56,549 nucleotides of DNA from Limisphaerales bacterium (GTDB taxonomy: Bacteria; Verrucomicrobiota; Verrucomicrobiia; Limisphaerales; BOG-1460). How positions within the stretch are numbered: position 1 is the first letter of the stretch; every line of letters begins with the position of its first letter. Positions 7,712 through 11,972 of the stretch are shown piece by piece. The notes below the pieces were generated by a model. That model was not told the DNA's origin. It made no database searches and worked only from the letters and a program-made list of their open reading frames with translations. Location of the stretch: positions 1 through 56,549 of the forward strand of contig PLQC01000054.1 in the NCBI GenBank assembly GCA_003159675.1, read 5' to 3'. The translations under genes and the position numbers were made by a program.

Positions 7712-7787
7712 GGGTTGGTAGCTCAGTCGGTAGAGCAGCGGCCTTTTAAGCCGTTGGTCGCGGGTTCGAGTCCCGCCCAACCCACCA
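7712..7787 (+). tRNA. tRNA-Lys (anticodon TTT)
   Basis: A full cloverleaf can be drawn. The acceptor stem is GGGTTGG (7712-7718) with CCAACCC (7777-7783). The D arm is GCTC/GAGC. The anticodon stem is GCGGC/GCCGT with loop CTTTTAA, giving anticodon TTT at 7745-7747. The T arm is GCGGG-TTCGAGT-CCCGC. The discriminator is A and CCA is encoded (7785-7787). It reads AAA/AAG lysine codons. It borders the accessory region to its right. Confidence 0.97.
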
Positions 7788-7892
7788 GCTTAATTCTCTG
7801 GCAATTACGCCAATATCACTGTAAATAAAGGTGTTCTTGCACCTCACCACCATCCCACCTTCAACGCATCGCGATGCAGTCATAAGCAACTA

Positions 7893-7921
7893 TTTGCCAA
7901 GAAAAGCAGCCTCTTGGCAAA
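7893..7921. repeat. 10-bp inverted repeat TTTGCCAAGA/TCTTGGCAAA near tRNA
   Basis: TTTGCCAAGA (7893-7902) and its exact complement TCTTGGCAAA (7912-7921) are separated by nine bases. A further CTGGCAAAT follows at about 7926. It lies about 105 bases past the tRNA 3' end and just beyond the 3' end of the leftward gene at 7951. It could be a terminator-type hairpin for that gene, although it lacks a good T run on that side, or leftover recombinase binding sites. No integrase is encoded in the neighbouring island. Confidence 0.5.
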
Positions 7922-7950
7922 TCTCCTGGCAAATCCAGACCCACTGACTT

Positions 7951-8688
7951 TCAGGACTGAATCTGCGGAGCCGCACCCACCCTATCAATCGGGACCCCTT
8001 GTTCCCTCAACAAAACACGGTACTCGGGTATCTCGCTCCCGGCAGGCAAGGCCCCAAAGAGGTAGTTGCAGAGCCAGTCATCAAAAACCTTCAAGCAGTC
8101 ATTGCTTAGGCGGGTCTTGTCTGGCTTCAGAAACGGCTTCGCTATTGCCTGGATTCGGTCAAATCGGACGCACGATTCGCGCGCGGCACCTTCCTCCTTC
8201 AGATGAAACGCCATCGGGAAACTGTACGCCTTCAGCATCTCAATGAAGGATGCCGGATACTTGGCCGGTTCTTCTTCGCTCCGCAGAGTATAGATTGGAG
8301 CGCAAAGAAAACAGTCTGGGAACCGGGCCGAGATCTTCCTGGTGGCGCGATCACCCAACCCCGCCAACTCAGTGCCGACCGACACGATGACCACTTTCCG
8401 CATTTTGAACTTGAGAGCACCCCAAAGCTCATTCGCCCTCAACTGAATCGCATGAATCGGCAAGTGGCTGAAAAGTGCAGCCTTTGGATTGTGGCAGTCC
8501 GCAGCCGTTCGTTTGTGCAGCGTGATGAACCCCTTTCCGAAATCCACCGCCGGATTCGGGTTTGAGAACTGGATTTCCTGAAACTCCTCCAGCAAGAACG
8601 CGCTGGGCGCCCAGGCGATAGTCCCACGCGAGAACAGAGGCTCATCAGGCCCAAGTGTTTCGAAGTACTTGGAAAGAATCCCTTCCAC
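7951..8688 (-). CDS. unknown 245-aa protein paired with a Panacea-like gene
   Basis: I do not recognise this 245-aa protein. It has no signal peptide or membrane helix. It contains a hydrophobic strand KVVIVSVGTELAG and a Cys-containing segment FPDCFLCAPIY. The start is GTG at 8688, eight bases after the stop of the SocA/Panacea-like gene, so the pair is almost certainly co-transcribed. Base composition looks lower in GC than the flanking chromosome. In Panacea-type toxin-antitoxin pairs the second gene is usually the toxin and is highly variable, so this is a candidate effector by position only. Confidence 0.7.
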   Translation of the reverse strand: MEGILSKYFETLGPDEPLFSRGTIAWAPSAFLLEEFQEIQFSNPNPAVDFGKGFITLHKRTAADCHNPKAALFSHLPIHAIQLRANELWGALKFKMRKVVIVSVGTELAGLGDRATRKISARFPDCFLCAPIYTLRSEEEPAKYPASFIEMLKAYSFPMAFHLKEEGAARESCVRFDRIQAIAKPFLKPDKTRLSNDCLKVFDDWLCNYLFGALPAGSEIPEYRVLLREQGVPIDRVGAAPQIQS

Positions 8689-8696
8689 AGGCAGGC

Positions 8697-9341
8697 CTAG
8701 TCTTCCTCACCCATAGCCAGCAACGCGGACTCGCTGGCAGCGTCAAGACTCACTCGCACCGGCTGGCTTGGACGATAGCCGCCCTTGCGAGCCTGCAACC
8801 GCCGGCGCAGTGCCTCCCCCTTGTCCTTGGAGATAACCGCGGAGAAATCCCGGACCGCATCCACAGGCTGCTTTGGATCCGGAATCACGCTGAAATCCAG
8901 TGGCTGAAATCTCGTCGCACTCAACATAGGTTGAGTTTCGAAATAGACATGGTCCAAGAGCAAAGGAAGCGTTGCCGGTGCCCATCGCTGGTAAACAGAT
9001 TCGACGATTCCCCGGATCGGCGCCGGCCAGCGGCCTGACGCATCAAGGAATCCCTTCGTAACACGATATCCTCGATAGAACTTTCCTTCACTAAATTCGA
9101 ATACCGGCTCCGGTTCAATGCCGTCTGCAGCCTGCGCTGTCTGGACCAAGTCCTCGCAGTAAGGCCCGTAATGATAGAACACCCACGTTGCATCTGTCAG
9201 CGTGCGACGATGCCACCGATAGAACTCATGATCGATGAGGTAAAAAAGTTTGACGAGCTTGGTGGTACCTAAACCCACACGATCCCGAGAGGCGCGACTC
9301 AGCAGGTAATACGCGATTTCCTGGACGAGCGGGGCGTTCAT
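8697..9341 (-). CDS. SocA/Panacea-like (DUF4065-type) protein
   Basis: The 214-aa protein begins with a helical domain resembling the SocA/Panacea (DUF4065) fold: VQEIAYYLLSRA, then TTKLVKLFYLIDHEFY and WVFYHYGPYCEDL. This is the family's T-K-L-x-K-L-x-Y-L-x-D helix and its Y-G-P turn before the next helix. Panacea domains are antitoxin modules that neutralise varied toxins, and SocA is an adaptor that delivers SocB to ClpXP. The C-terminal half (about residues 110-214) is unassigned. It lies between a small ribbon-helix-helix-like ORF and the unknown 245-aa gene on the same strand. The domain call is by eye; the role is inferred. Confidence 0.65.
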   Translation of the reverse strand: MNAPLVQEIAYYLLSRASRDRVGLGTTKLVKLFYLIDHEFYRWHRRTLTDATWVFYHYGPYCEDLVQTAQAADGIEPEPVFEFSEGKFYRGYRVTKGFLDASGRWPAPIRGIVESVYQRWAPATLPLLLDHVYFETQPMLSATRFQPLDFSVIPDPKQPVDAVRDFSAVISKDKGEALRRRLQARKGGYRPSQPVRVSLDAASESALLAMGEED

Positions 9342-9362
9342 TTTAGAGATGCAGCATTCATC

Positions 9363-9533
9363 TTACTGTTCACGGCCATCAAAACCAGCCAAATCGAACC
9401 TAATGCGGGAGCAGACCCGATGCCAGCACTCACGCACCCAAAGGACGACAAACCCGCGCTTTTTTGCTGCACCGCGGTGCATCTTCGCGTAAAGAGTATC
9501 CCCGAGGTCCATGGTAATGCGGCGCGCTTCCAT
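9363..9533 (-). CDS. possible ribbon-helix-helix-like small protein
   Basis: A 56-aa ORF read leftward, ending 21 bases before the Panacea-like gene. Its start, MEARRITMDLGDTLYAKMHR, looks like an RHH beta strand (R-R-I-T-M-D-L) followed by helix A (D-x-L-Y-A-K-M), and a second amphipathic helix VVLWVRECWHRV follows. RHH proteins are common transcriptional autoregulators of toxin-antitoxin operons, which would fit the position at the head of this operon. The alternative start is TTG at 9572. It is short and seen only by pattern, so it is tentative. Confidence 0.4.
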   Translation of the reverse strand: MEARRITMDLGDTLYAKMHRGAAKKRGFVVLWVRECWHRVCSRIRFDLAGFDGREQ

Positions 9534-9652
9534 CCCGAGCGATCCCGGCACCGTCGTCGGTGCCGCGCCCAACCTAAACTCCAGACCTGCACGAAACCAT
9601 CAATCCTTGCGAACTATCCCGACGCGCCGCTGCCCACGATGGCCTCGATAAA

Positions 9653-9934
9653 ATGCGCGGCCACCTGACCACGCCGGCCTATTTGGCAGACATTCAAGCC
9701 CGCCGGAAGCTGGCGGCCAAGGCTGCAGTTTTGGCGGCATACTTGCGCGCAGGCGTGCCGTTTGATTTTGCCTCCGCGCGTTACATCCGCAGCGCCGAAC
9801 AACTGGACTCGTTGCGTGCCGCCACGCTCAACGGCACACCGCTCGCGTGGATCGACGGCGTGAGAGCGGCCAACGACGAGGCCTACTATTATTGGTATCG
9901 CGCCATTCAACTTGGCCAAATCAGACCCACATGA
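9653..9934 (+). CDS. small unknown protein, first gene of overlapping trio
   Basis: The 93-aa ORF is soluble and Ala-rich in its first half (LADIQARRKLAAKAAVLAAY) with a C-terminal aromatic patch (EAYYYWYRAIQLGQ). No family is recognised. Its stop overlaps the next start as ATGA at 9931-9934, which supports expression as part of an operon with the following two ORFs. The 120 bases between it and the leftward operon starting at 9533 would hold divergent promoters. Confidence 0.5.
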   Translation: MRGHLTTPAYLADIQARRKLAAKAAVLAAYLRAGVPFDFASARYIRSAEQLDSLRAATLNGTPLAWIDGVRAANDEAYYYWYRAIQLGQIRPT

Positions 9935-10119
9935 TGATGCTGCCCGTGCCAACAATGCTGATGGTGCTGCTGGTGATGACGATCATCGTGCTGACGCTGT
10001 CGCAGGTCGAGTTCCCGTCCGCGCCAGCCACCGCCACGCCCACCGCCGGCACCGCCGCCCTTGGCCCTTGCTTGGGAGAAAACGAAACTCGTGAAGGGGA
10101 GGCGCGAAACGTGAAATGA
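9931..10119 (+). CDS. tiny single-helix membrane protein
   Basis: The 62-aa ORF starts with MMMLPVPTMLMVLLVMTIIV, one strongly hydrophobic helix, and continues with a low-complexity Ala/Thr/Pro segment and a charged tail. It overlaps the previous gene by ATGA (9931-9934) and the following DUF4209-type gene by ATGA (10116-10119). Such double coupling argues for translation despite the short length and the repetitive ATG/CTG-rich DNA. If real, it would be a small inner-membrane partner of the HEPN-like protein. It could still be a chance frame in low-complexity sequence. Confidence 0.4.
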   Translation: MMMLPVPTMLMVLLVMTIIVLTLSQVEFPSAPATATPTAGTAALGPCLGENETREGEARNVK

Positions 10120-11972
10120 GTGTCCTCGCTCCCAATCCCTTCGACGGTCTGAGCAAGGCGATGCTCGATGAACTTGCGTGGCCGTCACTCATCGCAAGAT
10201 CCGCGAGGAAGACCTGCGGCGCATACCAGGACCTGTTCCGCGACAAGGCCAAGGAATTGGAGGAAGGAGGCCGCTCGGAACTTGCTCGCGCTGCGCGCGC
10301 GCTCCAATGGCTCGCGGCGCTTCAGTTGCGGCTCGACAATCCGCGTCAGCCGTTCCACGGCCTCCATCCGATGCCCGGATTTCCTCTTCCTGGGCCAGAG
10401 GACTTCGGCGAGCCACTTTTGGCCATCTTCGCGGAACTCGCACTGGAAGCGGCCAACCCTGAATTCAAAGCCCGTCTGGCCGACCTTTGCTGGAGCACCC
10501 AGCAAAGACGTCATTTCGCGCTCGTTGCCCCAGCCATCGAAGCCTATCTGGCTTCCGCCGCCACCCTCTACCAGGCTGTTCCCGGCGAGACCCAGATGCA
10601 GTTCTGTCAGCGCTGGGATGCTGCCGCTCTCCGTCTGACGCGTGCACTCCAGCTAGCCAAAATGACGAGCCACAGGCTGGTCGATACGGTGAAAGCAGCC
10701 CTTGACCAGGTCTTCGCCCTCCACATGACCGACGCACCGCACCTGGAACTTGGTTCCCTCCTGGCCAGCTACCAAAATGAGATCGAGGGTGATGCCGCAA
10801 CGCTCATCCAGATTGCCGCAAGGTGCGCCAATCGCGCTGAAGCAGAGAAGGAATGGAACCACTTGCGCCACTATCTCCTCCTCAAGGCAAACTGGGAAAA
10901 GAAGGCCGGTCGGCCAGATCAAGCTGTTAAGACCGAGGAAACTCGCGCTGAAACTTATTTGCACGACGCAAACGCCAGCCCGACGTTCATGGGAAAGGCC
11001 CACTGGGTGGCTAAGGCAATCACCGCGTATCGTGAGGTCTCTCCCAAGTCGCCTCGAATCGAAGCTCTCAAGCGTCTCATGGGCGAGTATCAACGTCAGG
11101 GCATGGCGGAGATGCAAACCATCACCTACCCAATAGGCAATGGGATTGACCCAACCCAGGCCGCAAAGCATGTCTCCGGCAAGGCATTCGCGGAGGCGAT
11201 CCGGCGCCTGGCAGGAGTGCTCCCGCCAATGGAAGAGAAGAGCCTCCACGAGGCCGTCCTCATGCGGTGTAAAGACCCGTTTTTCGCCCTCGTTAGCCAG
11301 AACCTGATTGACTGGGATGGCCGCCTCATCGCCAAGCGCGGCAGTCCCGTCGACGACGACCCAAAAGTGCGCGAGCACGCCATCCGCGCCGAAATGTTCC
11401 GCATGGCCGTCGAGGCGGAAAAGGTTGTCGTCAGCGGTTACATCGAGCCGGCCCGGTTACAACTTCTGTCCGAGCATAACCCAAGCCTCCACGACTTCTA
11501 TCGTATGCTTGTTGACAGTCCTTTCATCCCGCCTGGCCGGGAGTACTTCTTCGCTCGTGGACTTTACGAAGGCTTGAACGGGGACTTCCTGGTCGCCGCC
11601 CACCTGTTGATCCCCCAGTTTGAGCATGCCCTCCGCTTCCATCTGGAAGAGCGCGGTGTTGACGTTACTACTTTCGACGAGGGCGTCCAGGAACTGATGG
11701 ACCTCAACAAGCTGTTTGGCATCCGCCGCGAAAACCTCCTGCAATTGCTCGGGCAGGACCAGGTCTTCGAGCTGGAAGGCCTGCTCATTCGTCGTTACGG
11801 ATCCAACCTCAGGAATTCCCTGGCTCACGGTCTGCTCTGGCGGCCCCAGTTTTTCGACCCGAGCGTCATCTATCTCTGGTGGGTCACCCTGCGCCTCGCC
11901 GTCTACCACTTGTTCCCACACCCGAATTCCGAGCCAGCCATACCCTCAGGCGCGCCGGCCCATCCATCATGA
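10116..11972 (+). CDS. DUF4209-like protein with C-terminal HEPN motif
   Basis: The 618-aa soluble protein is mostly alpha-helical. Its C-terminal part (about residues 480-600) resembles DUF4209: helices around GDFLVAAHLLIPQFEHALRF, then EGLLIRRYGSNLRNSLAHGL. The R-N-x3-H pattern at residues 566-571 (Arg566, His571) is the signature of HEPN ribonuclease domains, found in many toxins and antiviral effectors. The N-terminal 470 residues look like helical repeat or scaffold sequence and may be a sensor or binding part. It is the third gene of an ATGA-coupled trio in an island beside a tRNA. A defence or abortive-infection role is inferred, not shown. Confidence 0.7.
   Translation: MSVLAPNPFDGLSKAMLDELAWPSLIARSARKTCGAYQDLFRDKAKELEEGGRSELARAARALQWLAALQLRLDNPRQPFHGLHPMPGFPLPGPEDFGEPLLAIFAELALEAANPEFKARLADLCWSTQQRRHFALVAPAIEAYLASAATLYQAVPGETQMQFCQRWDAAALRLTRALQLAKMTSHRLVDTVKAALDQVFALHMTDAPHLELGSLLASYQNEIEGDAATLIQIAARCANRAEAEKEWNHLRHYLLLKANWEKKAGRPDQAVKTEETRAETYLHDANASPTFMGKAHWVAKAITAYREVSPKSPRIEALKRLMGEYQRQGMAEMQTITYPIGNGIDPTQAAKHVSGKAFAEAIRRLAGVLPPMEEKSLHEAVLMRCKDPFFALVSQNLIDWDGRLIAKRGSPVDDDPKVREHAIRAEMFRMAVEAEKVVVSGYIEPARLQLLSEHNPSLHDFYRMLVDSPFIPPGREYFFARGLYEGLNGDFLVAAHLLIPQFEHALRFHLEERGVDVTTFDEGVQELMDLNKLFGIRRENLLQLLGQDQVFELEGLLIRRYGSNLRNSLAHGLLWRPQFFDPSVIYLWWVTLRLAVYHLFPHPNSEPAIPSGAPAHPS

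Follow-up and report, generated by a model that had tools for sequence, protein, structure and literature searches.

What do two neighbouring minus-strand genes near the start of a 56,549-nucleotide contig from a Limisphaerales bacterium (PLQC01000054.1, here called the window) encode? A preliminary description, made from the sequence, proposed a three-part Panacea-type toxin-antitoxin (TA) operon consisting of a ribbon-helix-helix (RHH)-like ORF, a Panacea-like protein of 214 aa, and a 245-aa protein of no recognised family that might be the effector. We call the latter two PanA and PanT (Table 1). Both of these larger ORFs, described as lying 8 bases apart, are real and belong together. In published PanAT systems (PMC8832971), the partner gene is taken to lie no more than 100 nt away; PanA and PanT are 8 bases apart on the same strand. 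A hairpin between the PanT stop codon and a tRNA-Lys gene (ATTTGCCAAGA...TCTTGGCAAAT) possibly marks the transcript end, perhaps in both directions, its function being uncertain because the T tail is weak.

Table 1. Features of the PanA/PanT locus (positions in the window)
Feature	Position	Strand	Remarks
PanA, 214-aa Panacea-domain protein, putative antitoxin	8697..9341	-	First gene of the pair; ATG start
PanT, 245-aa putative toxin	7951..8688	-	GTG start, 8 bases past the PanA stop codon
MazF/PemK-like region, PanT residues about 87-212	8053..8430	-	Placed by hhalign, joint alignment and VIA-align of a relative's model
Hairpin between PanT stop codon and tRNA-Lys	7892..7922	-	13 pairs, 5-base loop; terminator-like site

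The third member of the proposed operon did not hold up. The RHH-like ORF (9363-9533, minus strand) encodes 56 aa from an ATG or 69 aa from an upstream TTG, and its first 40 residues recall an RHH protein by eye. Neither Pfam, searched up to E ≤ 10, nor the RHH proteins of the PDB gave a match, and no counterpart was seen among small ORFs upstream of the Panacea-like genes of the relatives described below. Weak matches elsewhere in the genome were set aside, being unlike RHH proteins. Codon usage is indecisive here, because PanA and PanT score equally poorly. As the RHH ORF is unsupported, we treat the locus as a two-gene module. This also alters its reported spacing from the genes on the other strand: the pair is indeed divergent from the plus-strand ORFs, but with the RHH ORF left out the gap runs 311 bases from PanA to the ORF at 9653, rather than about 120. 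Nothing specific speaks for the shared control suggested for the two sides.

PanA is a divergent Panacea protein. It matches PF13274 (SocA_Panacea) with 25.9 bits by hmmscan and 26.6 bits in the genome search, narrowly passing the gathering cut-off of 25.7 bits and bearing out the proposed family assignment. The match covers only profile positions 1-44 of 113, and the nearest plasmid relatives of PanA align across residues 24-142. The invariant Panacea residues are retained. PanA can be aligned with Panacea proteins from cyanobacterial plasmids, and also with the Panacea-like partners of homologous toxins, which themselves score under the cut-off (15.2–19.8 bits). It is the sole PF13274 match found by search of its own genome and the weakest of those passing the cut-off in the phylum, where 41 of 367 genomes have matches. 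SocA of the Caulobacter SocAB system also carries a Panacea domain, but PanA is not a SocA equivalog: it scores only 11.8 bits against NCBIfam NF047745, for which 190 are required. PanT, for its part, is not known to resemble SocB.

We searched 387 genomes of the phylum with PanT and found two weak homologues. The homologue in L003, 236 aa from its likely start, has a 272-aa Panacea-like ORF directly upstream. With this protein as the query, three further full-length members were recovered (L011, L012 and L013); another, L019, came from searching genome contigs with a profile. Two of these metagenome-assembled genomes (MAGs) bear the label Kiritimatiellae; the others are labelled Verrucomicrobia, PVC group and 'bacterium'. 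Each of the five has a Panacea-like gene immediately upstream of the toxin gene, and with translation beginning at the likely start codons the two genes overlap by 8–20 bp. Two other loci (L014 and L015) contain the 5' part of the toxin gene alone, adjoining the end of a Panacea-like gene, and one (L004) holds a truncated remnant without a visible Panacea gene. We found no full-length PanT homologue that lacks a Panacea-like neighbour, in line with the suggestion that the two proteins form a TA pair with the unrecognised partner as the likely effector. Because all five full-length homologues adjoin such a gene, though no more than 41 of the phylum's 367 genomes have a PF13274 match, the pairing exceeds chance. 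No further conserved gene was seen around the pair in the five full-length examples from five other MAGs.

The toxin family is rare. The window genome is its only carrier among 384 genomes of its class, and 5 of 346 genomes carry it in the class of L003. Direct searches with PanT gave no match in viral contigs, genome contigs, plasmids or phages, and whole-genome searches succeeded; with a relative or the family alignment, plasmids, phages and viral contigs again gave no match. PanT is only about 18–26% identical to its relatives. The relatives' Panacea-like proteins (L003, L011, L012, L013 and, most loosely, L019) share a C-terminal tail, roughly LDxLAGxxFPxxGATVHFSDEVWKSxxRxG, that is missing from PanA and from the plasmid Panacea proteins. 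For the Panacea domain a sensory role is favoured, with neutralisation often exerted through an additional segment (PMC10440598). It is only a guess that this tail may be a dedicated neutralising segment.

Several of these loci have defence-type genes in their neighbourhood. In L018 (4128-6692), the 3' end of the toxin gene overlaps the start of a gene for a DNA methylase (PF01555, 154 bits), and the pair may thus form part of a restriction-modification operon. An HNH endonuclease gene is present in the L003 neighbourhood. The interrupted toxin remnant of L004 (1305-3179; L021) lies directly before DarT and a NADAR-DarT1 antitoxin, on a contig with repeated upstream stretches. In the window itself, the plus-strand gene at 10116-11972, divergent from the PanAT pair, encodes a 618-aa protein with DUF7380 and DUF4209 that very strongly matches PDC-S39, a candidate defence gene in PADLOC (444 bits). 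A 93-aa ORF at 9653-9934 (plus strand) weakly matches the C-terminal end of AbiEii (E 0.0012) and is possibly a short defence-type gene or a remnant of one. On the other side, the pair begins about 160 bases past the tRNA-Lys gene (7712-7787), and the genes at 7951-11972 score less well for codon usage than those elsewhere in the window. Across 7712-11972, the tRNA adjacency and the codon scores are as would be expected of acquired DNA; a second tRNA-Lys 3' end, the mark of an integrated island, was not found within the window.

What kind of protein is PanT? No family matched it at E ≤ 1 in Pfam, NCBIfam, PADLOC or PHROGs, and no member of the toxin family matched PF02452, even at E ≤ 10, or any other Pfam entry. 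To that extent the preliminary description, which placed PanT in no recognised family, stands; its kind is nonetheless probably a familiar one, a MazF/PemK fold being likely. In an hhalign comparison, the family's C-terminal two thirds proved colinear with positions 19-108 of 111 in PemK, represented by 19 proteins from the same phylum. This piece, whose start was picked after the motif RRPCLVL had been noticed, gave E values of 2.8e-4 to 7.4e-4 and scores of 26–28 at an hhalign probability of only 26–41%. None of the 300 column shuffles per set, which do not preserve strand patterning, did as well (maximum 20.0), and the controls scored 12.6 (reversed columns) and 14.4 (Panacea family). In the joint alignment, the motifs of the PanT family and PemK come in the correct order. 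A PemK HMM gave PanT 9.9 bits, compared to 3.1 for the best shuffled sequence (1,800 made, 747 reported). When PDB sequences were searched with the family profile, mainly immunoglobulin light chains came up (E ≥ 0.05); these were rejected as chance matches.

The full-length family gave a short alignment with PemK that was placed differently, probably because of the N-terminal half. On its own, the N-terminal half of PanT scored 21.3 against the start of PemK (shuffle maximum 14.3), and direct comparison of the two halves (score 15.8) did not support a duplication. MazF toxins with long β1-β2 loops are known (PMC11394972), and the N-terminal half of PanT may supply the first barrel strand, followed by a long insertion, as the low-confidence AlphaFold model described below suggests. 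We also considered whether PanT might be a single-chain, two-lobed MazF, that is, a degenerate N-terminal MazF-like unit and a C-terminal one mimicking a homodimer, with an altered active site and under the control of Panacea instead of MazE; this seems to us rather improbable.

Structure prediction points in the same direction at low confidence. The AlphaFold model of PanT itself (pLDDT 39) is too poor to reveal the fold, and that of the L012 member has a pLDDT of 49 and a pTM of 0.50. With the latter model, Foldseek alone returned nothing at E ≤ 0.001, and among the Foldseek rows listed the highest target-normalised TM-score, 0.51, belonged to E. coli MazF. The best 50 VIA-align entries for this model were all MazF, Kid, CcdB or similarly titled toxins (Z 5.7–7.2, 83–108 residues aligned, rmsd 3.1–5.0), including CcdB 2vub at Z 5.9; Z values under 8 can reflect a shared arrangement only. 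To this extent, a MazF-like fold of PanT is indicated by a low-confidence model of a relative.

The genes next to other Panacea proteins supply a third line of evidence. Among the plasmid Panacea genes nearest to PanA, three in Nostocales (Nostoc pNLP1, Nostoc pNsp_b and Aphanizomenonaceae TIOX110) are followed directly, 1 base later, by a PemK/MazF toxin of PF02452. Unlike PanT, these toxins are detectable with Pfam (42–45 bits). The corresponding genes of Vibrio and Geminocystis are without a MazF partner. Direct alignment of the PanT family with the cyanobacterial PemK toxins gave nothing convincing, the cyanobacterial profile being poor because its three sequences are nearly identical. Profile, fold and partner context agree, each by itself indecisive, and PanT is most likely a very distant, enlarged protein of the MazF/PemK fold that database searches miss.

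The catalytic pair of MazF consists of Arg25 and Thr48 (PMC7354611, in which B. cereus is among the bacteria concerned). The relatives of PanT keep the Arg within an RRP or KRP motif. The window PanT has KMRK, placing R97 or K98 at the position of the Arg, depending on register, and lacks the RRP proline. At the position of the Thr, PanT has Tyr133 and the relatives have Phe or Tyr, so the catalytic pair is not retained; a true PemK protein of the phylum (L045) shows a similar CAPVYT pattern there. Elsewhere, S172, R175 and D177 do not vary across the seven aligned sequences. Kid uses an Arg and an Asp, spaced by two residues, on the equivalent strand. As PanT is neither matched by PF02452 nor in possession of the catalytic Thr, we do not class it among the canonical MazF toxins; at most, it would work like one.

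These active-site differences bear on the question of whether PanT cuts RNA at all. The module could be a PanAT pair whose toxin has a MazF/CcdB-type barrel and no ribonuclease activity, for example a CcdB-like gyrase poison or an inhibitor of another target. The presence of CcdB among the fold matches (2vub) and the family-wide replacement of the catalytic Thr by Tyr or Phe are in keeping with such a toxin, but the profile signal is with PemK proteins, the relatives keep the RRP motif, and S172, R175 and D177 are invariant. We consider it unlikely, and regard as somewhat less likely still a PanAT pair with a toxin of unrelated fold, in which the MazF resemblance would be the chance likeness of small β-barrel proteins. 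That Z scores under 8 may mean a common arrangement only, that the model has a pLDDT of 49, that PanT has no family match, and that the column shuffles ignore strand patterning all leave room for chance, yet it would have to explain the independent agreement of the sequence profile, the order of the motifs, the fold search and the partner context.

Two further readings concern the status of the pair and strike us as very improbable. One is that a once working module is degraded or inactive in the window genome: PanT lacks the RRP proline and is about 18–26% identical to its relatives, and PanA is without their common tail. Against this, both frames are open over their full length, and the invariant Panacea residues are kept, as are those of the SxxRxD motif. 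The other is that these are two co-transcribed genes with some function outside TA biology, a reading left room by the literature, in which we found no experimental evidence for the PanT family; it is hard to square with the strict conservation of the two-gene order across genera, the Panacea domain, the sparse distribution and the defence-like neighbours.

On balance, the locus is probably a two-gene type II PanAT module with a divergent MazF-like protein of enlarged size as its toxin, most likely an RNA-cutting one. The sequences show that the two-gene order is conserved, that PanA has a Panacea domain, and that PanT and PemK are remotely similar in profile. A complex of the two proteins, toxicity, cleavage of RNA and a role in defence are proposed by analogy with published PanAT systems, for which direct PanA–PanT complexes have been demonstrated (Kurata et al. 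2022, PMC8832971). In the same study, PanT proteins without CDD hits were predicted to be MazF-like and inhibit protein synthesis. By this analogy, PanA would be translated first and bind PanT directly, holding it inactive. Loss of PanA, or its sensing of a trigger, possibly phage infection, would release or activate PanT, and the free or activated toxin would halt growth, most likely through RNA cleavage that shuts down translation. Given the defence-type genes in several neighbourhoods, a putative role of the pair in phage defence is plausible.

Among known systems, the closest in kind are the PanAT pairs of Pseudomonas moraviensis and Bifidobacterium ruminantium (PMC8832971), where Panacea likewise lies beside a domain-less toxin predicted to be MazF-like. 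Set beside them by description, the PanT family differs in its altered catalytic motif and in the approximately 90 extra N-terminal residues that precede the PemK-like region of PanT. The order of PanA and PanT is the commoner, antitoxin-first order of published PanAT systems (PMC8832971). MazEF and Kis-Kid (PemIK) resemble the pair in toxin fold and profile, but their antitoxin is MazE/PemI where here it is a Panacea protein, and PanT is about twice as long and lies under PF02452 detection.

Published PanT toxins already form 88 clusters (Kurata et al. 2022, PMC8832971). Because Panacea genes paired with MazF-like toxins are among the published systems (PMC8832971), PanA/PanT represents a rare variant rather than a new type of system, and the gain for the wider field is modest. 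The pair illustrates that Panacea proteins at or just under the Pfam cut-off, together with their partners, can escape automatic annotation. With PanT, a family absent from the libraries searched joins the already long list of Panacea partners, and its proposed ancestry makes both its activity and its neutralisation directly testable.
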